Below, piece by piece: positions 6,093-63,740 of a DNA stretch of 64,000 bases; position 1 is the first letter of the stretch; the number at the start of each line of letters is the position of its first letter. The notes under the pieces were generated by a model. That model was not told the origin of the DNA and searched no databases. It was given only the letters and a program-made list of their open reading frames with translations. The stretch is from positions 16,639,629 through 16,703,628 of the forward strand of contig JABAKD010000002.1 in NCBI GenBank assembly GCA_012845835.1, written 5' to 3'. Position numbers and translations under genes: made by a program. Source of the stretch: Undaria pinnatifida. Lineage: Eukaryota; Sar; Phaeophyceae; Laminariales; Alariaceae.

Positions 6093-6283
6093 AGAACGTA
6101 AACAGGTCGTCGTTCCCGCGGAGTAAGGTAAGGTGAGAAGGTTTTTTAGCGGATGGCCCTTTGAACCACACCCACATTTTTGGTCACAAGATACTCGAAA
6201 TCAGGATGAAACCATATTTTTAGTAGCAACAGGGTTACAGAAGGGCATCCGCCTGTAAAACAACATCGCGCGGCGGTTCCCAC

Positions 6284-12486: not shown

Positions 12487-12516
<30 letters not shown>

Positions 12517-13445
12517 GCGTACTCATTTGTTGCTTGCCTTAGTCATTTGACCATTGACCACGCATCTCTTTCGAGACGGAGCACCGTTCCTACTCCTATT
12601 CCCAATGGAGACACCTCCAACACTTGGGCGCTCATTACGCTTCTTCCATATAATACATAAAAACTGTTTGCTTGTCCTATCCCCTTCCTGTTTCGCCGTC
12701 TGTGGCCACATCAATCTCCTAGAATAGCGATCGTTTTCACGCTATTCTCTAGTCTACCAAACCCTTCCATGTCACATTTATCAAATTTCCTCATCTCCTC
12801 CTCCAACACATCCCGTTCCTCCTTGTATATTTCACATTCTCCTACTATGTGAGTTCCACTCTCTATTGTTTCGCCGCACGGGCACACATGTGCATCCACG
12901 TCCTCCTCCCGTCTACTCGTATATCTCTATATTCTTTCTGGTAGGTCCAGGCCCCCTACACGAAGTCGCAGTTTCAGCTTCTTCGCGTGCTCTATTGGGC
13001 CGTGCAAATACGATTTCATTTCAATACCTTCCCTCAACCCCCCGTATACCTCTATTTTTTTCTTCTCTTGCACGTTATTTCTTAGCGCTAGCCTTTCCCT
13101 TTCTTCTATCCTTTAATTTACTTCTGTCTTGTACCCGTCAAACTTCTCTGTGGACAGTACCTCTTGTTGGTCTCCTAAATCCTCCCGTATTTTCTCGACT
13201 GCGTTATCCATCTTATTCCAGCTCGCCCTTTCGTTGTTTTTTCACATACAGCCATATCAGCTTTGGCTGGCAACCTCTTTCCTGGTATATTTCTTACTTG
13301 ATATTGCCATTTTAACTTTCTCACGCCTCTATTTGTTTCAAGTGGGTACATTCCTAGTCTTGCTCTTAATACTGTACTACTCGTCGTACTTGAGCACCCT
13401 AGTATGTTTTTAGCTGCTGCCATCTGCACTGTTTCCAGTTGAAAA
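12487..13445 (-). mobile_element. LINE fragment: 3' part of ORF2 (reverse transcriptase C-terminus) ending at a C run
   Basis: The minus strand from 13445 reads a stretch typical of the C-terminal half of LINE ORF2 (motifs AAKNILGCSSTTSS, RARLGMYPLETNRG, KLKWQYQVRNIPGKRLPA, TKGRAGIRW). At 12899-12840 comes the CCHC motif CPCGETIESGTHIVGEC found at the end of many LINE ORF2 proteins, then a KQFLCIIWKKRNERPS tail. The last bases run into about 30 C residues (G on the plus strand at 12487-12517). The frame is broken several times by stops and shifts, and the polymerase core is missing, so it is a dead 5'-truncated copy. It sits in a KH-gene intron about 120 bp past a KH exon. The clade was not determined. 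Confidence 0.75.
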
Positions 13446-17735: not shown

Positions 17736-18595
17736 TCATGGGATCGGCTGCCCTCGGTTGTCCCGAGGGAAAGCCGCGTACGAGTCCTCAAACCCCTCCG
17801 ACAGTGGCAGAGCGTCTGCGTCTATGAACGCCGTGTCGCACGAGCGCTTAGGTCCGCGTGACCCCGCTGCTGACGCCGTCACCCCTACGTATCGGCCGGC
17901 GACTTCCGCAGACGTCCATCCGACGTACTCCATGAGGACGTCTATGGCCGTACCATCCATGTGGTGGCTAGCCGCCCCCCCTAACCGGAAAGAGTGCAAC
18001 GCATACCGCTTATCCTCCATACCCGCCGCATGCAGGTGAGCCTGGAGGTTCGCGGTCATCTGCGCTGGTGTCAACGCTAGATTCCCTTTCTCTTCGTTGT
18101 CTCGGACGCTCGGGAACAGAAAACCTGAGCCCTCTGCTAGGGCCCACTGCATGGACGCTGCAGCCTGTCGGTACTCGATCATAGCGGCCACCGCGCAAAT
18201 TTCGCGACAGTCCGTGTTCCTCCTCACCACTACCGCATGGGAAGATTCCCGTAGATTTTCCCAAAGAGAAAAATAAAAAAGAACCCCTCTCCCCCGGACA
18301 TCTGCATCACTTGTGCCGCGACCGCTACCGGCAGTTTGAACCCGCGCTTCATCGTGCGGAATACTACGCAAAAAATCGCGACGTCTCGGACCATCGCGAA
18401 TCGTTCTGTCGCTGTCGGCAAGGTGGCTACGCGTCGCCGCATGTCTATGAACAAGCTTCGCAACTGGCTCGCCACCAGCGGGGGCGCCTGTTTCACCGAC
18501 ACCCCCCCTCGTCGCTGCTCCTCCTGCGCGTTGGCCAGGTATCCCCTTTCGAGCGCACTCGCTACTGGATTTCCCCGTTGCTCAACGGGGTCCCA
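17736..18595 (-). mobile_element. Tyrosine-recombinase element fragment (fossil)
   Basis: The minus strand encodes most of a tyrosine recombinase. An N-terminal helical part includes MVRDVAIFCVVFRTMKRGF. The catalytic part has ALHSFRLGGAASHHMDG (the HxxR motif as HSFR) and, about 30 residues later, GRYVGV with the candidate nucleophile Tyr. Elements of this kind (Crypton-, DIRS- or Ngaro-like) are common in brown algae as I recall them, but no reverse transcriptase or terminal repeats are seen here, so the class is open. The copy looks broken, with about one break. On its upstream side it abuts a SINE at about 18600. Confidence 0.75.
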
Positions 18596-27357: not shown

Positions 27358-29363
27358 TGTTTGTGGTAAGCGGTTGTTCGATACTGGTCTGCGTATATTT
27401 GGGGGGTTTGTATATTATGAGGTTTCGTACTATGTGCCGAGGCATTATTTGGTATATGCCTCGGAGTGTGGAAGGCTGCCCCACTGAGGCAGTCGATGAT
27501 GATAATAAAGATATGACCCGGACTTTGATGACAAGATACTGTCCGTGTGTATGAGAGGGTGGAGCGTGACGACAGGTACGGCTCGCCCCTGTGTGGTTTT
27601 ATGTGCGTGAAGCCTTTGACGACAGGTACTGCGCTTCTTCTGTGTGGGTGTGTGTTCCAGAATTTGCGATAATCAGGTGCGGCTCCGTGTGTAATATCTT
27701 GCAAGATTGTGTTCTGTAGGGTACGTACAAAACATACCCGGGGTATTCACCCCGGGTATTACCCTACAAAGAACTTATGTAAGTTTCGTAGGACATTCAT
27801 ACCCGTACCCGGAAGTTCTGGAAGTTCAGTACGACATTCATACCCGTACCTGGAACTTCTGGATGTTCTGTACATCCGTGGCCACAACGCCCGGGGTACG
27901 GGTACAGCATGTTTTGTACCCGCTCGGAACTTCTGTGAGTTCTGTACACCTGTGCCACAATACCCGGAACTTCTGAAAGTTCTGTAAGACTTCCGCACCC
28001 GTACCCGGAACTTCTGGAAGTTCTGTACGATCTCCATACCCTTACCCGGAACTTCTGTGAGTTCTGTAAGACTGTGGCACAGTACCCGGGGTACGGGTAA
28101 GCCTTTGTTACAATACCCGAAGAGCCCTGTATCCATTCAGGTTTGATCCGAAGAGTGTATTATGCATTATGGTGTCTTATCTTGCCAGCCACACAAACCA
28201 AACACCGAACAGCAGTACATATCACACGATAACAGCACCTGTCGCTCATGTTTCTTTCGTTTCTAAGAGCACGTATTGACTAAGGACACTGTTGAATCGA
28301 AAATATTCTTTTTCCATGAATCGAACTGAATTCGATTCGAAAATGGTGGAAACATACGAGTTTGCCTCGTATCGGGAAACCACGTATGTATTGCGTATTG
28401 TCAAGAAAAAAATCCGAGCGGAATAATGCAGATCTCGCTATCATCGAAGTCTGGAACCATCCTCTGTGCTTTCAGTTGCTTCGCTTCTTTGTCGTGGCAC
28501 TTGGCTTATTGAGCCGGTGGCAAAATTGGGCGTGCGACCGTTATATTTTTTTGAGGCGCCACAACCGGGGTACGCCATGGTATGATCTGTTACAGAAGAG
28601 TAGACGTGAGCGCGGCTGTTGCCCCGGTGGGCACTCATTGAGGTTCACGATTAATCGCCTCGGTGGTGGCTGTCGATAGCCCTCAAAGCTACGACGGATT
28701 GCCTCGGGGACGTTTGCCCAGTGAGAACATGCCATGCAATTACGATGGAATACTCCACTTCAAATCGAACTCCTCCCCCGAGGTCGTGTACTTTCCTGGG
28801 TATTACCCGTACCCGGAACTTTTGTAAGTTCTATAGGATCTTCATACCCGTACCCGGAACTTCTGTAAGTTCTATAGGATCTTCATACCTGTACCCGGAA
28901 CTTCTGTAAGTTCTGTACGTCAGTGCCACAAAGACCCGGGGTACGGGTACAGCATTTTTATACCTGCCCGAAACTTCTGCAAGTTCTGTACGCCCGTGCC
29001 ACAATACCCGGAACTCCTGGAAGTTTTGTAAGACTTCCATATCCGTACCCGGAACTTCTGGAAGTTTTGTAAGACTTTCATACCCGTACCCGGAACTCCT
29101 GTGAGTTCTGTACGACCCGTGCCACAATACCCGGGGTACGGGTACAGCATGTTTTGTACCCGCCCGGAACCTCTGTGAGTTCTGTGACACTTCCATACCC
29201 GTACCCGAATCTTCTGAAAGTTCTGTAAGACTCCCATACCCTTACCCGGAATCCACAAGCCCTACAGAACATAACCTGGATATCTTGTGTTCTCCTCACC
29301 TACTCCATAGGGGCACGCCGTGTGGTTACATAAAACTTGTTATACAGCAAGCGAAATCAAACA
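27358..29363 (+). repeat. 3' LTR of the Copia-like element, split by an insertion
   Basis: It starts TGTTTGTGG and ends AAATCAAACA. The 1.58-kb hAT-like element at 27702-29279 divides it. Confidence 0.85.
27702..29279. mobile_element. hAT-like non-autonomous DNA transposon with palindromic subterminal arrays
   Basis: Terminal inverted repeats: left CAAGATTGTGTTCTGTAGGG, right end reading inward CCAGGTTATGTTCTGTAGGG. An 8-bp target duplication ATATCTTG (27694-27701 and 29280-29287) fits the hAT superfamily. About 400 bp at each end is filled with units of about 35-40 bp carrying CCCGTACCCGGAACTTCTG and the palindrome GAACTTCTGGAAGTTC, with ACCCGGGGTACGGGT palindromes between. The middle (about 28.14-28.76 kb) shows no transposase. 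Such arrays are likely transposase binding sites; that is inference. A second member lies at 43717-47826. Confidence 0.8.
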
Positions 29364-34290: not shown

Positions 34291-34426
34291 TTGATGATAA
34301 AAATATACTTCGAAGTATATACTCAAGGTTTCTGGTAACGTACGATGCTGTAACAGACTAACAATAACGATATTCAATGATATTAGTTATGATGCGTAGA
34401 TATATTATAACAATTGAAATACACTT

Positions 34427-34790
34427 CAGCTGTGAGATCGAATATTTTGTCGAAACTCATCTTTGCAAGCTGTGTGTGATACTCCGACCGCGCGTATTAC
34501 GGGTTATGTGTCCTCATTAAGGATATAGGTCGGCGACTCCCCTTGCAACTACAGTGTAGCTATCAGGGTCAACAGGGTGGTGTTAGGCAGTCTGTGCGCG
34601 GAAACTATAAAACCCGTTTTTGAGGGGGACAGAATCTGACAGCTGTGGAAGGAAATGCATCAGTTTATCAAGTGAATCCTGTAAGTCGAATAACCGGCAA
34701 GGGGAGGGCGGAGATTTTAAGGACGTGGGGGCCTGATTTTGATCAAAAAGGGGGGGCGAGGGGGGAAAGGGGGGAAGGGACAGGTGGGGC
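34427..34790 (+). repeat. Dispersed repeat led by a reversed KMSFDKIFDLTA box; partner of 49000-49345
   Basis: The box (34427-34471, minus) is followed by GGATATAGGTCGGCGACTCC, ACTATAAAACCCG, GAATCTGACAGCTGTGGAAG and GGAGGGCGGAGATTTTAAGG. The same sequence lies in opposite orientation at 49000-49345. Partial copies occur at 4400-4530 and 49388-49520. Confidence 0.75.
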
Positions 34791-43082: not shown

Positions 43083-44419
43083 AGGAACGGACATCCTCGA
43101 GACGACAGCAGACCTCGGCCTCTGAAATCTGCCAGCCTGGTCTCCATCTTTCCTCTGCTGGCAATCCGCACGCTCTCTCTGCTATCCGTGGCCTTTCGCT
43201 GCGATGCCCCGACCACAAAACGCGTGCATGGGCCGCCCGCAAGGGCACTGGTGAACCAGTGAACCAAGTTGAGACTTGATTTTGCACGTTGGTTCGCCAC
43301 ATGGCTTCAAGCCCGCAGCAGGCGAACCACCAGCAGATGGGAGAAATCTTTCCATACCCACACGCAGTAGCAGCAGCAGCAGCAGCAGACCGCTTTCGGT
43401 GCAGTCTACAGGTGTGCTACAGCAATTTTCGGGGGGCCCATATGGTGGAAAAATTGCCCCCCCCGTAATTTTTCAATCTGCGAGGCACCATGCTTCTGGT
43501 ATTTTTTGTGTCCTTAAAGCGGGGACGACTGCTGTACCTGTAGTTGTCCCCAAACGTGCGTGAATTTCTGAAGGCGGGACCCTTTCAGAACTGCAAAAAT
43601 GGTCGAACACTTACATTCTCAGTTTTTATTAGTACCGTACAGGCCGGTTCACGTTAAAAACCCCGAAATTATTTCCTGGCGAATGTTCGTGCCGTTTTAA
43701 CGATTCAGACATTTTGCAAGGTTGTGTTTTATAGGGTACGTAAAAACCACACCCGAGGTATTCACCCCGGGTATTACCCTACAAAGAACTTCTGTAACTT
43801 GTGTAGGACCTTCATACCCGTACCCAGAACTTTTGGAAATTTTGTACGACATCCATAACCCGTACCCGGAACTTTTGTCAGTTCAGTACGCCCATTGCCA
43901 CGGTACGGGTACGGCACGTTTTGCACCCGCCCGGAACTTTTGTGAGTTATGTACGCCGTGAGCAAAAGGAACTTCTGGGAGATCTGTAAGACTTCCGTAC
44001 CCGTACCCCGGGGGTTCTGGAAGTTCTGTAAGAACCCCATACCCTTACCGGGAACTTCTGTGAGTTCTGTAAGACTGTGGCACAATACCCCGGGTACGGG
44101 TAGATACTATACGTTTGTATCAATACCCGCAGTGGCCGGTACAAAGTAGGGTCGAACGGATTCTGGCTTCATGTCTCGTCCGCCTGACGCCACGCCCTGA
44201 CACGTGTAATACACACAGAACCAACCCCCCTCAAAAACCTCGTACAACGTATGCGCTTTCCAATTCTCTACAAGTACGAGGTAGGTAGAACCAAAACGTA
44301 TGTGGTATGTGACATGTATGTATACGCAGTGGGCATGTTTGTATAATGGTTGCAACCCGTGGGGCGTCTTCGTATACTCGATTTTTTTATTAGATTTTTT
44401 TTTTCATCGCGTTTATTAT

Positions 44420-47215: not shown

Positions 47216-48279
47216 GTTTTACCCGAGTATTACCCGTACCCGTAATTTCTGTGAGTTATTTACAACCCTGCCCATACCCAGAACGTCTGTGAGTTATGTG
47301 CGACATTCATACCCTTGCGCGAAATTTCTATTTGCGTATTCCCCCGGGTATTGCCCTACAAAGCACTTCTGTAAATTCTGTAGAACATTCATACCCGTAC
47401 CCGGAACTTCTGTAAGTTCTGTACGCCAGTGCCACAAAGACCCGGGGTACGGGTACAGCATTTTTATACCTGCCCGGAACTTCTGTAAGTTCTGTAAAAC
47501 TTTCATACCCGTACCCGGAACTTCTGGAGCTTCTGTAAGACGTTCAAACCCGTACCCGGAACTTCTGTGAGTTCTGTACGACCCATGCCACAATGCCCGG
47601 GGTACGGGTACAGCATGTTTTGTACCCGCCCGGAACTTCTGTGAGTTATGTATGCTTGTGCCACAATACCCGGAACTTCTGGAAGTTCTGTAACACTTCC
47701 ATACCCGTACCCGAAACTTTTGGAAGTTCTGTAACACTTCCATACCCGTACCCGAAACTTTTGGAAGTTCTATGAGACTCCCATACCCTTACCCGGAATC
47801 CACAAACCCTACAAAACATAACCTTGAAATTTTGCACACGTCTTTTAGCTGCTATGTACCCTTGCGAAGACCTCACCCCATTTTTCTTTTTTTTGCCTGA
47901 TTTTTCGTTAGTTAAGATTTTTCGGAAAATGTGGACCACCTTAGACCAACTAATATGGAAAATATTTTGAGCGATTAGTTCTCTATTTAACAGGGATCTC
48001 CGACGCCAAAAATATAAACCATCCACTATAGGGCCAGAACCCTGCGGATCGGGTGATTTCTGAGCCCAAAAATAACAGCTCTTCCAACCTCTCAGAACTA
48101 GGATTATTTGACATTGGGATACTACCTCGTACCAAGTATCACATGTCACCAGCGCCTACTCTGATATGATACCTGTCCGCTGTACACGTCACTCATCACC
48201 CACAACAAAGAATCACAAACACACAAACGACAGTACACCGCGCTTGTTGTGTGCGAGACAGAGCTTCGTCCTCACACAA

Positions 48280-48999: not shown

Positions 49000-49345
49000 C
49001 CCCCCTGCTCCCTCATGGTCAACCCCGGCCCCCACGCCCTTAAAATCTCCGCCCTCCCCTCACCCGGTTATACGACTTACAGGATACACTTGATAAACTG
49101 GTGATGCATTTCCTTCCACAGCTGTCAGATTTTGTCCCCCTCGAAAACGGGTTTTATAGTTTCCGCGCGCAGACTGACCAACATCACCCTGTTGACCCTG
49201 ATACAAGCTACACTGTAGTTCCAAGGGGAGTCGCCGACCTATATCCTTAATGAGGACACGAACTCAGTAATACGCGCGATCGGAGCATCAGACACAGCTT
49301 GCAAAGATGAGTTTCGACAAAATCTTCGATCTCACAGCTGGAGGG
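49000..49345 (-). repeat. Dispersed repeat, inverted partner of 34427-34790
   Basis: It runs on the minus strand from the KMSFDKIFDLTA box (49295-49341 on plus) through GGTCGGCGACTCCCCTTGG and CCACAGCTGTCAGATTTTG (as read on the plus strand) to the AAAATCTCCGCCCTCCC end. A shorter further copy follows at 49388-49520. Confidence 0.75.
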
Positions 49346-49801
49346 TATTTTTTATTTTATAATATATCATAGCTGACAAAGCTTCCCTGGGGGGGGACGG
49401 GCGGGGCAACTCAATCTATGCGCCGAAACTATAAATCCTTTAAGGGGCCAAGTCTGACGGTCGTGGAAGGAATGCATCAGTTTATCATGTATATCCTGTG
49501 AGTCGCACAACCAGTGAGGAGAGGGCGTAGTGTTCGAAGGTATATGTCTTTTGTCGTAAGACCACGAGGGCAATACCATATCACGCTACGATTCCGACCC
49601 TGCCGCCAACCAGTGTACTGTACTCAACATCAAGCAGATTTTTTTTTTGTTTATGTTTTTAACCCGCCGTGGCGTAAAGTTCTCCATGCGACCGATCTTG
49701 ATACGAAAAGTGGAATATTACCCGCCCAGGTGGCATGCCGGACTATTTTTTGTTTTTGAAAAGGTGTGTGTATGTATTTAAAAAACTGAAAAAATACACT
49801 T

Positions 49802-50571: not shown

Positions 50572-50839
50572 TGTCAAGTGGTTAGGGGTGAGACACAGAG
50601 GATCCCTACAGGTCGACCAAGTGGGCATGTCCCCGGTGTTACTCACTTTCGCAGCTCAAGGCGGGAGAGAAGCAGCTTTCATTATTTCCACCAGAACCGA
50701 AGATGACAACTGGGACGGGAGGACGAGTCTCTCCGTCTCCTGACTACCCCGAATATTGAACGCCATCCTATCATATGAAAACGGCCAAATACCGATCTAA
50801 ATCGGGTAATTGCCGGCCTTTCAAGACCGTACCTTAACA
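50572..50839 (-). repeat. 3' LTR of the NADAR-bearing element
   Basis: It matches 57650-57923 over its length, including GTGGGCATGTCCCCGGTGTT and CATATGAAAACGGCCAAATA. Confidence 0.85.
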
Positions 50840-51711
50840 CTAGCCCACCCTGATAAGTCGCATACGCAGAATTATGGGAGGTTCGGAGAAACTCCGGTTC
50901 TACGAACTTGACCATGAGTCGAAGATGCGGCTCCTCGAAACCCACTCCCACACCACTAAACGGCCTGACTATGAAGCCAGGAAATCGCGAAGAAAAGCCG
51001 TTGAAGGAAACGTAGACCCAACAACAAGGCAAACCACCCATAAAAAACCTGCCGCGTACCGCCGATGTGGCGGGGGGGGGAAGGACAAAAAAAGCGCCAC
51101 GGCAAACAAACCACAGAAAAGGCACTATGGCAAGGCAAACCCTCGTCGAAGTGAAGGGGAACAAAGGTGCTAATGCAAGGGAGAAGTCATGCCAAAAACT
51201 TCCCGCGGACCACTGGCATGGCGGGGGGTTAGATGAGGAAACGACAAATACCCGGAATGGAAGGTGAAATCACCTACAGCCCCGCGAGGGGGAGAAGTGC
51301 TCAGCCGAAAAAAGTAAAACAAATACAACACAAAAAAATAAAAATTGACACACAGACCCGTATATAGCCCTGCACCACGTTATGCGTGAACAGGGTACCC
51401 TGGTCGCCCCCCGGCTATGGGCTGAGAAGGGCGTCGGAAGGGCGAATTTGAACAACCACGAAAAACCGAGAGTCCTGAGCCTCAGATGGCGGCGTGATCA
51501 CCCGGACCCTGGCCCGACACTGAGAGGGGGGGTCGGCAAGACTGAAAAAAATGGTAAGAACCGCCCCGCATCCAGACCAAAAGCTCGAAATCCCACAAAC
51601 AAACCAAGGACAAGAACTCCAAACCTCATAACCCGGGAAAAAAATGGAAAACTCTTGAGGAGCGGCGGCGGCTTGAAAGTTAAGTAGCCACGGTCGAGTC
51701 TCGAGGGTCAT

Positions 51712-51900
51712 CTACGTTACGTTACACCCCACGTCGACGTAGACCTGAAGATACCAAGAGCCTCGTACGGTCCCCGTCGGATTTGTGTAGCGCGCCGGAG
51801 GGAGAAGAAGTTTAATCAGCCTCGGGTCGACCTGAAATCGGACCAGATATACCCCGCCTTCAATCGTACTCGCGCTGATTTGCCCAAGCCACCACAACCC
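51712..51900 (-). other. Chromo- or Tudor-like stretch in the LTR element (fossil)
   Basis: A short frame reads WWLGQISASTIEGGVYLVRF, followed by LPPARYTNPTGTVRGSWYL. The W..G.I....G.YLVRF pattern resembles small beta-barrel reader domains (Tudor, Agenet, chromo) that LTR elements can carry to target chromatin. The assignment is weak and from pattern only. Confidence 0.35.
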
Positions 51901-53899
51901 ATCGTCGTCCTTGTACCGAAAGTGGGCTCCCTGAGGGAATACTGTATCGCGGAGGCGGCGAACACACTATGCGCGCGACGCGAGCGTAGCTGGGCGCCAA
52001 AAATGTCCGCCTTCGTTCAGAGAAAGCTTACACTGTGCCGCACCGATGCGCATTCGGCGGTAAAGCGAAGCGGTTGGTTTGGCGGGGTTGGTCTGGGGTG
52101 CCGGCCGAATAACGTAGCATGTGGTTTCGAGAGTGTTGGAGGTCCTTTTCCCACCCCCAGGATGGTTCAGAGAGTCCCCGCCAATGTGTCTTGTATATCA
52201 CCGAGATGACGCCACCGTGGGTCATGGACGAGTGGTCGTCGCTTGTATGTAGGCGGCCTTTATTTGTCAGCTCCTGGGCGTCCGAAAGGAAGGGACGCTT
52301 GTGCGAAGGATAACACGACAAGAAGTCGGGTGACTGTGACGGTGACCGGCCGATAGTGGTGTAGCGCACCTTGGCATATCAGGTCGGCGTACTCTGGCGT
52401 TCTCTCTCCCAGTCGGCATGCGAAGATCGCGCAACGGAATCAGCGAACTGCAGTTCATCAACGTCGTCAAGGGCGTCTAACTTTGTAGGTGCAGTTGGCG
52501 TGTCGCCAGGAGTGGACGGAGGTCGTAATATAGGAGTTCCAATAGACTCCGTGCGGTCACGATCGGACGGGATCGGTACCGCGGGGACGGGAGAGGCGGC
52601 AGGAGCAGGGGTCGCGGCGGTCGACCGGGTCGGCCGCGGCCGTGGGACTCGCGGCGGGGTGTTGACAGTCCGGACAGATGGTCGAGGGGCCGCGCCGGGC
52701 CCGAATCCATAATCTACAGCGGGGGTGCATTACCGGTTGCTGTCGCTGTTCGTCGGCGCGTTGTCGACGACGGAGGGGCTGGAGTGCCAAGCAAGGCAGA
52801 GACGGACTCAGTCGAATGGTTGGTCGCGGCGGAGTCCATCTCCTGTGTAGAACTCATTGGTAAATGAGTCGGCTGTACGATGAACGTCGCTGCAGCCAGG
52901 GCTTCTGCGGAGCCCGTGCCGCCCTCGATGGGTATGGCAAAAACCGAAGCGAAAGGGGTGTCAGCGGCAGGAGAAATCGACCCGCGCCCGGTACAGCCTT
53001 CGGCAGTCGCGACGGAGGCAGAAACACGAGCGACGAATCTCCCCGGGGGAGCAGAAAGGCTGTCGATCCTTATACGTGGCTCGTGAGTTCGAAAATCGTG
53101 AAATGCGGTAGGGGTGAGAGGGAGCCAACCCAAGACAGCATGTTCAGTGCGGGGCACGAGCCCACCCAAGACAGTGCTTTCGGCGCGGGGCACGAGTCCA
53201 CCCAAGGCAGTGCTTTCGGTGCGGGGCACGAGCCCACCCATAGCAACCCCTGGGATCGGCGAGAAGGAAGCGCGCAGCCCGCCGGTCCGTCGGAGGTAGA
53301 TACCGCTATCTCCAACGGGGTTGGGGCTTGTCAACCCCACGGGGTTAAAGCTTGTCAAGCCACTGTAGTCGTACTCCGTAGCAGGCTCTGGCAAGCGGGC
53401 CGGAAATTCGGCGATGCCGTTGGCGCTGCCTTTGCGGTACTGGAGTGTGCAATCGAACGCGGTGACGAACTCAAGCTACCGCTGGACTCATGCATTGAGG
53501 GTCCCCGCTTTACAACGCTCTCCTGTGCCTTGTGGTCGGAGGATATTCGGAACTTTATTCCCCAAAGTACCCTCGGAGGCGTTTGGGAGCCCAAACAATG
53601 CTGCCCGGTCCCCAAATCTAGAGGAATCCAGTGCCTCTCCGAGTCGAGCGTTGCTCGACTGATGTACGCGATTTTCATAGTGAACGAAATGTAGTCCAGC
53701 CTCACAGTACCCCCGACGAAACAGGGGCCGTGTTCTGACAGCGCAAGGTCAGAGCCGACGCCTAAAGCTATTTCCACAAGTTCACGGCTTTTAGTCGGCC
53801 AACGCGGCCGAGATATAGGTCGGAAACTCCGAAGGGGGACCTTTGCGTGCGCTGGCTGCTGTTAACGGCCCGGCCACGGTGCGGACGAGATTTCTTGGT

Positions 53900-54430
53900 T
53901 CCTGCATTCGCCGTGCAGGTGCGGAACTGACTAGGGGAGGCTGAGAGCGCCGACCCGGTCTCACTGTCGCGAATAGCTTCGCAAACGGCAGAAAGTGCCT
54001 CACCGAGCAAGTGTTTCCTCTCCACTGGCATGGGTTGTTGGCCCTGGGATCATTCACCCGGAGACCAATGCCCCACACTGGGTCCAGAGGGCTGGGTTTA
54101 GCCAGAAGCTTATTGTCAGAGCTCACGAGTGATTTTTCATGCGTGGATTCTGCGTGAATTTGGCGTAGGTGCCAGATAACACGGCTTTTTGCTTCTCCCT
54201 GTCCCCAAAAGCGGAGTCAAAGTTGCGAACGCCTCGACCGATGCGTGTGTGTGCTTGGGTCAGGCGACGACATGATGAGCTTCACTGCTCGGTGGTCTTG
54301 AACAAGACGAGCCTTTTCGGCCATCATATACTGCTCCGCGCAAGAATGTGACACGTCGTCCACGACAAGCGACGAAGGGGACCGCGGTGAAAAATAGAAT
54401 GGGGGCTGCCAGAACAACACCTCTCTGTCT
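53900..54430 (-). other. NADAR-type (YbiA/DUF1768) domain region in the LTR element (fossil)
   Basis: Separate stretches match consecutive hallmarks of the NADAR fold: SCAEQYMMAEKARLVQDH with LIMSSPDP (the conserved H/Q-E-x-Y..A.KA helix region), then a VRNFDSAF and YAKFTQNPRM part, then SPLDPVWGIGLRVND (the D-x-x-WGIG core), then LLGEALSAVCEAIRDS (the final G-x-N/LLG-x-x-L-M helix). NADAR proteins such as bacterial YbiA/RibX hydrolyse N-glycosidic bonds in riboflavin precursors, and some remove ADP-ribose from DNA. Its presence in a retroelement is unusual. The region is broken in this copy. Confidence 0.65.
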
Positions 54431-56053
54431 GGAGTATTCGGGAGAAGGGTCAAAAGCCGTGTCAGAACATGGGCCTGCAATGTCCCCGTCTGGGAACACC
54501 AGGCCTCGGGAGCACGACGCGAATCCGAACCCGCGGTTTCTCGCCTCGGGTCCTCTTCGCTCATTGGCGGGAAAACACGAGAATTCGCTCTAACTGCGCC
54601 CGAAAAATGGTCAAAAACCGACGGTGCCAACCCGTCGGTAGCCTTGTTGGACATTTGGGTCTGCGATGTCCCCTTCTGGGAACACCAGTGCTCGGCACTT
54701 TGGGCCTGTAGTGTCTCCTTGCGGGAATATCCGGCCTCGGAAGCATAATGCGAGTCCCAACCCGCGGTTTCTCGCCTCGGGTCCTCCTCACTCGCTGGCG
54801 GAAACTCGTAAGAAGCCGCCCTTGTTGCACCCAAAAAAGAGTCCAACACCGATGGTGCCAACCCGTCGGTAGCCTCGTTGGTCTTTGGGTCTGCAATGTC
54901 CCCCTCTGGGAACACCAGTCCTCGGCACTTTGGGCCTGTAGTGTCCCCCTCAGAAACACCAGACCTCGGGAGCCCGACGCGATTCCAAACACGGTTTCTC
55001 GCGTCGTGGCCTCTTCGCTCTTAGGCGTAAAAGCGCAAGAAACTGCTCTCACTGCGCCCGAAGGGGCAGGGGCTCTGAGCTGTTTCTGTTTGACGAGAGG
55101 CGCGTTTCTTCCGCGTATTTACGGGAATAGCGTCCAACTGGTCAGGCTGTAGGCCGTGGCGTCACCACTGGCCCATCGCGCAGCGTCGAATCTTCTTGCT
55201 GTACCACTGGGGCAGACGTAGCGTCAAAGAGTGCTAAAAGACGAAGCAGGACCCGTAGACCCTGTGGGCGTCCTCTGGAGCGGGGCTCGGGCAGGTGGCA
55301 ATGGTTTTTTCACCCGAGGAGAATTTTTCCGTTAGACCTCTTGCAGAAGGGAGACGAGGTAGCTAATCTTGTCGACTCCTCCTTGATGGAAAAAAAGACA
55401 GGGCGCCCGCTTCTATCGCGAGCAAACACCGGATCGAGCCTCGCAAAATATCTCGGTGTTTTAGTGTTGGCCTTCCCATACCTCAAACCGGCCGCCACCT
55501 CGTGGTCAGCAAAAAGTGTTTGAGGGTCGGCCACCCCACACCTCAAACCGACCGTCACCTCGCGGTCAGGGAGAGGGGGGGATGAACACGTTCGCCTAAA
55601 AAGGCGACGCGCCGTCACCTTAGCTATATTGCTGCGCGACGCGTGCCTGGGGGAGCGCGCAAAGCGTCGGCTCCCGTGCCATGGTTGATGGTGGCGGCGT
55701 TTGGAGCGCGTACCCCCATTGCCGAATTTATGCCGCGGCTGAGGGAAACGGCGCCGGAAACGCGGGTTCCCGTCGCCGATCCCAGACCACGACCGAGGTG
55801 AACGGCGCTTGAAGCGCGCGTTCTCATCATCGAAAAAAAGGACCTGGCTGAGGGGAACCACGCTCGAAGTGATTTCCGCCGCCTACGCCATGAGGATTGT
55901 CAACAGACGGCGTAGGAGCCCGTGGGCTCTTGACAAAGGAAATTTGTGATGCATTATTGGGCAGGCTAGTAACAGGTACACGAGCATCTTCTGAAACCAA
56001 AATAGATGTCCCCGACAGTACCAGGCCGGGTGTGCCGTACCGCCGTCGAGCTG

Positions 56054-57607
56054 TCAAATGCCGGTACGGAATGTGCCAGGCTGGCGCGCGTTCGGATTTC
56101 CGCCCCGGTTATGGGCGACTCCAAAGCGCATTCCAGGAGCAGGAGCGGGGGCAGAAGAGGCGGGCGAGGGCGGGATACCACCATGTTGATCGGACGTGTA
56201 TGTGTTATTGTTGTGACAATTTATCTGGCCCTGATCCTGGTGGTACCCTCGCGATTGACCTGAATGGTGGCGACGATTTCTCTTGTGTTTGTTCGGGCGA
56301 GAAGGTTTGCCGTCTCGGCAGTAGCAGATCATGCGTGCTTGCCAACGTCGGTATGCGTCATCGTCGCCAAGTTGACCAAGTTCAGGGTTCAAACAGCCGC
56401 TCGCATCAATGAAAGAATGCCAACAATGCTTGAATGAGTGGTTGTCTTGGTGGCAGTTGAGGCAAAGTCCCCGGTTTTCTCGGAGGGCATCAGCGTGAGT
56501 GGAAGGTGAAAGGAGGCCGCTCCAAAGGGGAGGGTCGTCGGTCTTAAACGAGGCACTAACGGCGAAAACTTCTGCATAATGATGCTCTTCTAGTGGCCAG
56601 CAGTTCGATGTCTGGTCAAGCCAAGGATCAGATGAATCATCGATGGGCATGACAGTTGGATGATGGCTCGATCCCATCTGCCACGAAAGCGACTGGGACG
56701 GTACTCGGCCGTGGCCGCGCCCATGATCGGCGGGCCGGGGCCCCGACGTGGCGGATGGCCGCGCTCCCGTCGAAGAAACAGGCAGAGAAAAATATTTTTC
56801 GCCGTTGACGGCAGGTGTCTTTTTATGTGCTAAGTCACCAAAAACCCTCCGCATGGCATCCAACGAGGCGTATGACCACGGGTCCGTTGCCTTCGAACCA
56901 GGGTACAACGTAGGCATAAGCGTCGGAAATTGCTCATTCACCGCCATCCGAACCACCTCCAACACCACATCCGTCCCCGGAGACAAAACACGCTCACTGC
57001 CCGTAGCGGTCGACACAGGTACGCGAAATTCCCGACTGAAATCGCAGAAAGGAGTGCCATTACATACTCCAAAAGTATGCAACTTGATGTAGCCCTCCCC
57101 CGTGTCAACCCGGTCGAAGTGCGTCGTCAGTAGACGCAACAGGAGGGTGAAAGCCTCAGGCCCAGATGCTCCTCCTGCCATGGCTCGCGGCACCTGCCCA
57201 AAAAAAACATCGATCAAGGTCGCCATGTGGAGCGGGTGGTCCCAACCGGGCACCCACGTGGGAGATCGTACGCCCTCTGTATAACGGTCGTCGCAGCGCA
57301 TGGGAATGACGGACATTGCAGATTTAACCGAGCGCGTGACTTGCTGCGCGCCGTTAGACTTGTTCAAAGAGGTGGGGAACGGCAGCACAGAAATGCTGCA
57401 TACGTCTTTGTAGGGGAGCTTAACGTAGGCACGCTTAACGGAGTCATCAAGCGTGGCTTTGGCTGTAGCCGCGGCAGTGGCAATCGCGGGGGTACGAGCG
57501 CGGGCCAAATCCGAAGAAACAGGTTTAGTACGATCACCCGACACGGTCAGTTTGCTCAGGCGATCGGCGGAGAAAGCAACGTCCACCAGGGAAGGAGTCA
57601 TTCGCAT
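56054..57607 (-). other. Gag-like protein of the LTR element, 517 codons
   Basis: The frame starts about 40 bp inside the 5' LTR. Residues 90-270 are a compact, partly helical region (GWDHPLHMATLIDVFFGQVP, then FTLLLRLLTTHFDR), possibly a capsid-like domain. At about residues 382-395 lies CLNCHQDNHSFKHC, a C-x2-C-x4-H-x4-C zinc knuckle of the retroelement nucleocapsid type. A basic, then Gln/His/Asn-rich tail follows. Position, zinc knuckle and LTR context support Gag. Confidence 0.7.
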
Positions 57608-57649
57608 GTTGCCTTACCATTTTGTTTCAGACCTGCCGTAGACGCCATA

Positions 57650-57923
57650 TGTTAAGTGATTAGGGGTGAGACACAGAGTATCCCTACAGGACCTGTCGAG
57701 CAAGTGGGCATGTCCCCGGTGTTACTCACTTTCGCAGCTCAAGGCGGGAGAAAAGCAGCTTTCATTGTTTTCACCAGAACCGAAGATGACAACTGGGACG
57801 GGAGGCACGAGTCTCTCCGTCTCCTGACTACCCCGAATATAAAACGCCATCCCATCATATGAAAACGGCCAAATACCTATCTAAATCGGGTGATTGCCGG
57901 CATTTCAAGGCTGTACCTCAACA
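57650..57923 (-). repeat. 5' LTR of the NADAR-bearing element
   Basis: It runs from TGTTGAGGTACAGCC (minus, at 57923) to CACTTAACA (57650). On the inner side, TGGCGTCTACGGCAGG could be the primer binding site; the tRNA was not identified. Confidence 0.8.
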
Positions 57924-60540: not shown

Positions 60541-60941
60541 GTTTATTCATGTTGGCAGCTTTTGCCTCTGCTGTCCGTGTGCCGCGATGACCCCATTTCG
60601 CTCCTGGTTGTTTCGCCCGTTCGCTTGTTCGTTCACTCGGTTTTTGTTCTGTCGCTCGAACCTCTCGACGGTGTTTTGTTGTTTGATGGTGACAGCTTAT
60701 GTCCTTGCCGTCCGTGTCCAACGACGATCCCATGTCACTCCCCGCTCGTTCGTTCGCTCTCTCTCTCGTTCGTTCCTTTGTTATGCTCGCTCGGCCCTCT
60801 TGCCAGTGTTCTGCGTTCCATAGTTAATGTTGACAACTGTGCCCCGTGCCGTCCGTGTGCCACGACGACCCCGCTTCGCTCCCCGCTGGTTTGCTCGTTC
60901 GTTCGGTTGCTTTCTCTCTTGCTTGCTCGCACCTCCCCAGC
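60541..60941 (+). repeat. Three diverged tandem copies of an intron 3' end
   Basis: Units of about 135 bp each read GTTG(G/A)CA(G/A)CT, then CCGTCCGTG or CTGTCCGTG, then CGACGA(C/T)CCC or GATGACCCC, then a CGTTCGTTCG-rich pyrimidine tract, then GCTCG-CCTC. The third unit ends in the real acceptor CACCTCCCCAG at 60940. The first two carry decayed acceptor-like ends. Confidence 0.7.
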
Positions 60942-62945
60942 CAGCCGTTCTATTGCAAGGAACCTTGGCTGCGCGCCGCGGTGACCGAAGAGATGCTCCT
61001 CGGAGCGGACGGGAAGGGTCTCCACGACGAAGAGGCACGGCTTTTCGGCCTTCTCGACAAGGTCATTGTTGTCGGCAAGCCGTGCGAGCTCCTTCTCACG
61101 GCGGACTACGGCGTGGCAGAAGACGCCATTATCCTCCTGGAGCCAACGTTCGCTACACCTACGCCCCCTCCCGCCGACGATAACGTTGGCGAAGTTTCAG
61201 CCCCCGCTCCACCACCACCACCGTCGTTGGCGTTACCATTGACATTATCTGCAGAAGCAGGGGCATCGGCGACAGCAGCGGCCGAAGCAGAAGCAGTAGC
61301 AGTGGCAACAGTAGCAGCAACAGGAGCAAGAGAGGCGGCCTCGAGACTTCCCGGTGCCCTTAGGTTCTCTTCTGTCGGCACGCTCTGTCCTCGAAAAGGC
61401 CAGCTAGAGCTCGTCCGTGCCTTCAGAACGGCATGCGCTTCCCATCCGACAGAACTCGGTGAGTCTGTGCTCACTCTTATCGGCGGCGAAGGGGGCGACC
61501 CTGATTATGCCGCCGCGGTTACGGCCGCCGCCGCTGCCCCCAGCTCTTCCCTTGCCGAGGACGCATCAGCAGACAGCGGCGGAGTGCGATCGAATGTGTG
61601 CCTACTAGGGTCCTTACCGCACGACCAAACTCTCGAGGTAGTCGCGGAAAGCGACGCCTTCTTGCTGAACTCTTGCCTGGAAAGCTGGGCGGTCGCGCCG
61701 GTAGAAGCGGCCTTGCGTGGGGTGCCGGTACTATCCACCCGGGTGGGCACACTCGACCAGACTTTGCCCCCTGAGCCGACAATCTGGGTCGGCTCTGGGG
61801 GGCAGGCGGGAGGGGGCGCCGACGCCCTTGCTAACGGTGGAGAAAACGCGGGCGGGGACGTGGGCGGCGCTCTAGCCTCCATAGAAGACTGGAGGAATGC
61901 GCTGCTGCAGTTTGCCCAAGCCCGGCGGCGGCTAAAACTCGAAGCCGCGCGCGCGGTGCCGAATCTCGTGCAGCGGTTCGGACAGGCTGCCGCGGGGTCG
62001 CGGTCGCGGGCGAGAGCTGTGCATGTGCTAATTGGAACGGCGCGGGGGTGGGGGGCTGCGAACCCTCCCCGCCCCCCGTCTTTGCGAAGAAAGCTGGCGT
62101 TCCTCGCCGCTGGACAGCTGGACAGGGGGGTAGGCGATGGCTCCATCGGCGAAGAGAGCGTTGTCACGGGGTCGAATGGCGTTGGCACCAGTCTTAGCTG
62201 TGGCTGTTCCAACGGGTCTGGACATTCCAATGAATCTGCTCACTCCAAAGGGTTTGGCCACTCCAACGGATCTGGCCACCCCAACGGATATGTTCACTCC
62301 AATGGATCTGTCTCCTCAAAAGGATCTGTCCACTCAAATGGATCTGTTCACTCTAAAGGACCTGTCCACCCCAAAGGATCTGTCCGTTCCAATGGATCTG
62401 TCCACAACAACGTCTCTGGCGGTATAGCGGTATCTGGCGATTCCAACGGCTTTGGCGGTATACCGGTATCTATGTGTATACCGGTAGCTGGCGACTGCAA
62501 CGGCTCTGGCGGTATACCGGTATCTGGCAACATACCGGTAGCTGGCGACTCCAACGGCTGTGTCAACTCCAATGGATCTGGCGATCCCAACGGCTCTAAC
62601 GGTATACCGGTATCTGGCGACTCGTGCTGTGCGGGGTCCAAGTCGACCAGCAGCTCCGGCCGAGTTCCGGATACCATCCCCACAGCCGCGGTTATTGGGT
62701 CGGATGATCAGGAACGCATCCGTCGTGCCACCGTGATGCACGCCCTCGCCTGCGTGTGCGCGGCAGCACTGTCAGTCTGCGACGCGGGCGGCGCGGCGGG
62801 CGGCCTCGCGGCTTTGGTAGGGGCGCAGGTGCTCCTGCTCGTTACCCTCGCGCCGACGCCTTCGCCGGCGAACGTGGTAACTATTTTTAGGAGTTTCATT
62901 CCGCCGGCGGTTGTGTGGTGGAAGGCTGGTTCAGACTTCGGACAG
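60941..62945 (+). CDS. GT4 glycosyltransferase / CDP-alcohol phosphotransferase fusion, exon 2 seen
   Basis: One base completes the split codon, then 668 codons follow to donor CAG/GTGAGG. Codons 1-72 finish the N-terminal GT-B half (WLRAAVTEEMLLGADGKGLH, LLDKVIVVGKPCELLLTADYG, IILLEPTF). An Ala/Pro linker follows. Codons 138-370 are a glycosyl-transferase group 1 (GT4) domain with FSSVGTLCPRKGQLELVRAF (K152 at the phosphate-binding site) and the retaining-enzyme EX7E motif in ESWAVAPVE (E247 and E255), then ALRGVPVLSTRVGT. Codons about 405-565 are a low-complexity Ser/Asn/Gly repeat coded by a minisatellite. Codons 590-668 hold hydrophobic helices with PSPANVVTIFRSFIPPAV, the N-terminal N-x-x-T-x-x-R signature of CDP-alcohol phosphotransferases. 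If the intron were retained, 40 further codons with a hydrophobic stretch would follow before a stop. Confidence 0.8.
62160..62640 (+). repeat. In-frame coding minisatellite (Ser-Asn-Gly units)
   Basis: TCCAATGGATCTG, CCAACGGATCTG and TATACCGGTATCTGGCGA units repeat in one frame, giving SNGS and GIPVSGDSNG peptides. It separates the sugar-transferase and lipid-head-group domains and is likely to vary in length between strains. Confidence 0.85.
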
Positions 62946-63071
62946 GTGAGGCCGTACATCATGGTGCTGTGTTTTTTGGCATGGCTAGGCCTGGTAGCAC
63001 TGCAACAGCATAAAGGTGCTGTTGGTTATATAGCACTATCCACTAGACTACTTAGTCACTCACTGTGAACG

Positions 63072-63644: not shown

Positions 63645-63740
63645 GTCGGGGGGGGGGGGGGGGGTCCACATGTGTTGCTTGCCTTAGTCATTTTACCATT
63701 GACCACGCATCCCTTTCGAGACAGAGCACCGTGGGGGGGG
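63645..63740 (-). mobile_element. LINE 3' end fragment next to a G/C run
   Basis: After about 15 G (plus strand), TGTTGCTTGCCTTAGTCATT, then ACCATTGACCACGCATC and CGAGACAGAGCACCGT match the LINE end at 12525-12595 on the same strand, also joined to a G run. It sits in the next intron of the fusion gene. Confidence 0.6.

Follow-up and report, generated by a model that had tools for sequence, protein, structure and literature searches.

Between positions 50572 and 57923 of a 64,000-nucleotide stretch of Undaria pinnatifida DNA (contig JABAKD010000002.1; the whole stretch is called the window below) lies what is in all likelihood a single decayed copy of a Ty3/Gypsy long terminal repeat (LTR) retrotransposon of the brown-algal kind, in which a NADAR domain starts Pol; it is likened to that kind by anatomy, not by sequence. 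The original prediction had placed a NADAR-type domain and a Gag-like frame with a CCHC knuckle between two LTRs of about 270 bp. Our analysis recovers each of these components: the two repeats, the knuckle-bearing open frame and, by a profile search with PF08719, the NADAR domain itself (Table 1). The presence of a NADAR inside an LTR element is thus supported by the profile scores and by the pairing of the LTRs.

Identity of the NADAR domain

On the profile scores, the identity of the NADAR domain is certain. It occupies about 54423–53960 of the minus strand and is split over three frames. When one minus frame is read with X at the stops, PF08719 matches over profile positions 10–148 of 163, that is across most of the domain, with E=1.6e-14 and 54.9 bits for a gathering score of 35.1; another minus frame, read in the same way, matches positions 50–109 (E=0.00095). 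The two halves taken separately reach 32.5 and 23.7 bits, each under the gathering score. TIGR02464, the NCBIfam model of a riboflavin-intermediate N-glycosidase, matches at 53900–54441 with E=1.5e-16, its 61 bits remaining under the cut-off of 73.7.

We also used a profile of viral NADARs. The N-terminal half of the domain fetched 26 viral loci from IMG/VR, 20 of which were used, the broken locus L024 and exact duplicates being excluded. Among the 1448 pieces of the window (at least 30 aa), three pass the inclusion threshold of this profile, with 56.4, 35.2 and 32.4 bits; the next-best piece has 9.6 bits and the maximum over 20 dinucleotide-shuffled windows is 7.5 bits. All three pieces lie within 54423–54013, overlap end to end and keep the order of the profile. 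The score of the N-terminal piece is partly circular, the profile members having been fetched with that half; those of the other two are not. The tail assigned at 53960–54010 has no profile match of its own. Given the broken frame and the shortness of its pieces, one could think of chance motif matches where no NADAR exists; but three ordered pieces at 32–56 bits, where the 20 shuffled windows do not exceed 7.5 bits, and the E-value of PF08719 refute this reading, to which we give practically no weight.

Searched by tblastn (E up to 1), NADAR matches 594 of 50,697 phage records, none of them covering at least 80% of the query, and 62 of 72,556 plasmid records, three of which do. The best phage matches listed come mostly from Pseudomonas phages, at 37–39% identity and with E down to 3e-17. 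The C-terminal piece found no relative of the element in IMG/VR. A sequence search of the PDB with NADAR returned two weak matches to copper resistance protein C (E=0.29 and 0.31), which we do not retain.

Loss of function

Judged from its sequence, the NADAR of this copy is dead, and no enzyme activity is to be expected from it, because its reading passes through three frames and a lysine occupies the position of a catalytic glutamate. The original prediction had called the copy a fossil, rightly so on both grounds. The stop met by the first frame at 54217–54219 sits within the stretch that continues in the second frame, so that it may be a consequence of the frame shift and not a separate lesion. 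According to PMC11543638, the active-site residues of the YbiA-type NADAR of Phytophthora nicotianae are E43, K50 and E125, the last being the glutamate of the YbiA family, replaced by Asp or His in other NADAR subfamilies. Here the equivalents of E43 and K50 are retained, by spacing, in AEQYMMAEK; the equivalent of E125 is a lysine, in LAKPSPLD, a placement on which the profile alignment and the distance to D130 and W133 agree. At this position 25 of the 26 fetched viral loci (20 distinct sequences) carry E, the remaining one, L024, being broken upstream of it. The domain is thus a dead relative of the YbiA subfamily, outside its active members.

Structure of the element

The two LTRs are identical in 252 of 274 aligned columns, 6 columns being gaps; they differ by 11 transitions and 5 transversions, i.e. 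a Kimura two-parameter distance of 0.063. In the orientation of the element (minus strand) both begin with TGTT and end with ACA, and such paired direct repeats with TG...CA ends are those of an LTR retrotransposon. The order on the minus strand is: LTR, possible primer binding site, Gag-like open reading frame (ORF), spacer bearing a tandem array, NADAR, RNase H trace, long spacer and second LTR. None of the element's plus-strand frames matches a Pfam family with an E-value of 1 or less, and blastn (E up to 1e-3) finds no third LTR copy anywhere in the window.

When the element is shuffled 500 times by mononucleotides, no stop-to-stop frame exceeds 436 codons, whereas the Gag-like frame has 519. 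Since the window pieces contain the CCHC pattern two times in total, the knuckle alone is weak evidence. As a whole the frame has no Pfam match, and the knuckle piece alone matches only APOBEC_C, weakly (E=0.14) and surely without relationship; the putative designation as Gag therefore rests on the knuckle, the length and the place of the frame.

Could the NADAR be a host gene, or a captured viral one, lying by chance between two unrelated LTR copies? The abundance of NADAR-like sequence in phages, its report in giant viruses (PMC9503650) and the absence of an exact target-site duplication would suit this explanation. We nevertheless hold it hardly credible: the LTRs are paired in one orientation, the Gag-like ORF and NADAR share one strand, a possible primer site is present, an RNase H trace adjoins NADAR, and a NADAR in a Gypsy Pol has been published for a brown alga (PMC12477816).

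Table 1. Features assigned to the element, with positions in the window
Feature	Position	Strand	Evidence and remarks
3' LTR	50572–50839 (268 nt)	-	identity to the other LTR; TGTT...ACA ends
Possible C-terminal chromatin-reader-like Pol piece	51712–51966	-	DUF4537 E=0.12; single-sequence model with three strands, predicted local distance difference test (pLDDT) 42
Possible RNase H end (TLQYRKGSANG), another frame	53370–53475	-	by eye
Probable RNase H remnant (reverse transcriptase-linked type)	53505–53672	-	PF17917, below the 24.8-bit gathering score
NADAR tail (LLGEALSAVCEAIRDSE), third frame	53960–54010	-	by eye, against viral NADAR C-termini
NADAR C-terminal part (LAKPSPLDPVWGIGL), back in first frame	54013–54153	-	viral profile 34.8–35.2 bits; PF08719 E=6.2e-5
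NADAR middle part (IGRGVRNFD ... AKFTQNP), second frame	54132–54257	-	viral profile 32.4 bits
NADAR N-terminal part (CAEQYMMAEKARL), first frame	54235–54423	-	viral profile 55.8–56.4 bits (partly circular); PF08719 E=1.2e-7
Tandem array, period 231, 2.4 copies	54470–55020		lies in the Gag–NADAR spacer
Gag-like ORF, 519 aa	56054–57613	-	open frame, length, CCHC knuckle at 56464–56423
Possible tRNA primer binding site TGGCGTCTACGGCAGG	57632–57647	-	starts two bases past the 5' LTR
5' LTR	57650–57923 (274 nt)	-	identity to the other LTR; TGTT...ACA ends

Probable remnants of Pol

Directly behind NADAR, on the right strand, stands the trace of a retroelement domain, which is probably a remnant of RNase H: PF17917 (RT_RNaseH) matches the piece 53355–53861 with E=0.027, and other cuts in the same frame with 0.028, 0.018 and 0.0048. 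In one series of cuts, two of the five match, both in the same frame. The Pol of Ty3/Gypsy elements carries reverse transcriptase (RT) and RNase H followed by integrase; here this order is represented by the weak RNase H trace, with E-values from 0.0048 to 0.028, and no profile of RT or integrase accompanies it. Fewer than 300 bases separate the NADAR tail (53960) from the trace (53672), too little for a protease and an RT. A further piece, TLQYRKGSANG, presumably resembles the way in which RNase H ends in Gypsy elements. The RNase H piece has no sequence match in the PDB. Towards the 3' LTR, Pol may end in a chromatin-reader-like piece at 51712–51966, but at this model confidence nothing should rest on it.

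Several results weigh against the assignment of the copy to a Gypsy element. PF17917 always stays under its gathering score and is absent, at E up to 1, when whole frames are scanned; in the scan of single pieces, which had given E=0.027 for PF17917, MalQ_N, surely a chance match, obtained a comparable E=0.018 in the repeat spacer. The supposed RNase H end has no profile match, and a scan of the minus frames with E allowed to reach 1 turns up neither RT, protease nor integrase. By eye, the outer ends (left ..GTGATAT, right CAATATG..) lack an exact target-site duplication of 4–6 bp, the usual companion of LTR elements, which is lost with age. Finally Gag, the two RNase H pieces and a 25-base word of the LTR found no relative in IMG/VR.

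The last result, like those from prokaryotes, is expected since the element is eukaryotic. Of the two RNase H pieces, one has no relative among the contigs of prokaryote genomes; the other gave a single locus (L027), where the match is 18 residues long and runs antisense to frames of bacterial appearance, and we take it as chance. With E limited to 0.05, only three other pieces of the element match this locus, none of them at the same place (best E=0.004).

Proposed history

The original prediction had noted no reverse transcriptase and regarded the element as non-autonomous and dependent on a partner. Certainly no RVT profile matches and pol is mostly undetected; on the other hand a probable RNase H remnant had been missed, and this remnant, together with the layout of Pol in Ectocarpus, suggests a full Gypsy element whose pol middle was lost. 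Such a loss from a complete element is probably the simplest history, and fits the sequence better than an element built without pol, because a probable RNase H remnant follows NADAR and the published place of NADAR in Ectocarpus is the N-terminal region of Pol. Protease, RT and integrase would have disappeared through internal deletion and decay, leaving a copy that could neither move by itself nor produce an active NADAR.

A true non-autonomous (LARD-like) family, made of Gag and NADAR only and moved by an autonomous partner, of which this would be a dead copy, seems unlikely to us. It would account for a long, uninterrupted Gag-like frame next to a pol that is mostly undetected, and LTR families with one gag-like ORF do exist among the Copia elements of Ectocarpus (PMC12477816); the probable RNase H remnant behind NADAR argues against it, and a single copy in 64 kb says little in either direction. 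We regard as decidedly improbable that the copy belongs to a separate Gag and NADAR family which lost pol, kept its NADAR under selection and spread via partner elements. If so, NADAR would serve the RNA or DNA of the element in particles independently of the original pol.

In intact relatives of the decayed Gypsy element that we favour, NADAR would be translated within the polyprotein and then enter the particle. Relatives of the domain are N-glycosidases which, according to PMC11543638 and PMC11125620, take ADP-ribose off guanine in nucleic acid. By analogy with this chemistry, NADAR may act on N-glycosidic linkages and strip ADP-ribose from the RNA or DNA of the element, or process RNA intermediates. 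A role against host defence based on NAD or ADP-ribose, as suggested in the original prediction, is hypothetical. Behind this stands the question of what makes a Gypsy lineage conserve its NADAR in Pol, and whether the host marks the nucleic acid of retroelements with ADP-ribose. A dead copy cannot answer it; the role of NADAR is to be asked of intact copies.

Other features of the window

On the plus strand, past the 5' LTR, 60834–63065 contains an ORF of 744 aa in which PF00534 (glycosyltransferase group 1) matches at E=5.6e-10, probably an exon of a host gene; tandem repeats with periods of 18, 36 and 54 bp lie inside it at 62208–62582. Two further ORFs are on the minus strand. That of 280 aa at 6149–6988 matches KH_1 (PF00013, E=1.4e-4, just over the cut-off, with no single stretch passing) and is perhaps part of a host RNA-binding gene. 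That of 281 aa at 17739–18581 is weakly matched by the profiles of tyrosine recombinase (PF00589, E=0.0067) and of RES (E=0.0095), each under its cut-off, and is possibly the remnant of a DIRS/Ngaro-like element, possibly a product of chance.

Repeats are found elsewhere as well. A 41-bp minisatellite (CCCGGAACTTCTG...) is dispersed over three sites in about 20 kb (27767–29258, 43782–44102 and 47281–47805). Some 14.4–14.6 kb separate the arms of an inverted repeat at 34399–34662 and 49102–49368, whose lengths are 163 and 102 nt and whose complementarity is 90 and 94%; they may mark the two ends of a large DNA transposon, or be a repeat present twice. A direct repeat of 85 bp that starts with a G-run occurs at 12503–12587 and 63648–63732, with 92% identity over a distance of 51 kb.

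Comparison with known systems

The original prediction implied that a NADAR in such an element was new. This does not hold: the combination of NADAR and Gypsy is already published, NADAR having been described in the N-terminal region of Pol of Ectocarpus Ty3/Gypsy elements, Gypsy-12_Ec32 and its lineage (Dinatale et al. 2025, PMC12477816). According to this paper, database matches to NADAR outside Ectocarpus are almost all bacterial; in the Pacific oyster (Crassostrea gigas) ORF1 of several Tx1 LINE families apparently is a NADAR too; and the role of the domain in the elements is called unclear, possibly RNA processing. We found no other report of NADAR in transposable elements, most of the literature being judged by title and start of abstract. 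A survey of viral systems that involve NAD and ADP-ribose (PMC9503650), which reports NADAR from phages as well as from giant and RNA viruses, has in its main text no occurrence of "retrotranspos" or "transposon" (0 counts of each).

The YbiA/NADAR hydrolases, such as that of P. nicotianae (PMC11543638), are of the same domain family, and two of their active-site residues are kept here; unlike them, this copy has lost the third, stands in a retroelement and is a pseudogene. The Tx1 LINEs of C. gigas share with it a NADAR carried by a retrotransposon, but they are non-LTR elements with a different protein and a distant NADAR.

The closest likeness in anatomy is to the Gypsy-12_Ec32 lineage, as far as its published description goes: an LTR element with a YbiA-family NADAR on the N-terminal side of Pol and, possibly here too, a chromatin-reader-like piece at the C-terminal end. 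That NADAR follows the Gag-like ORF and precedes the RNase H trace, all on one strand, fits the published layout of Pol, to the extent that the weak RNase H assignment holds. The two differ in that the copy in U. pinnatifida, compared by description only, has a broken NADAR and is without detectable RT or integrase. By its anatomy the element is thus most likely a decayed, internally deleted relative of the published Ectocarpus kind, and adds one dead copy to a published oddity, that of retrotransposons with an enzyme domain which handles ADP-ribose.

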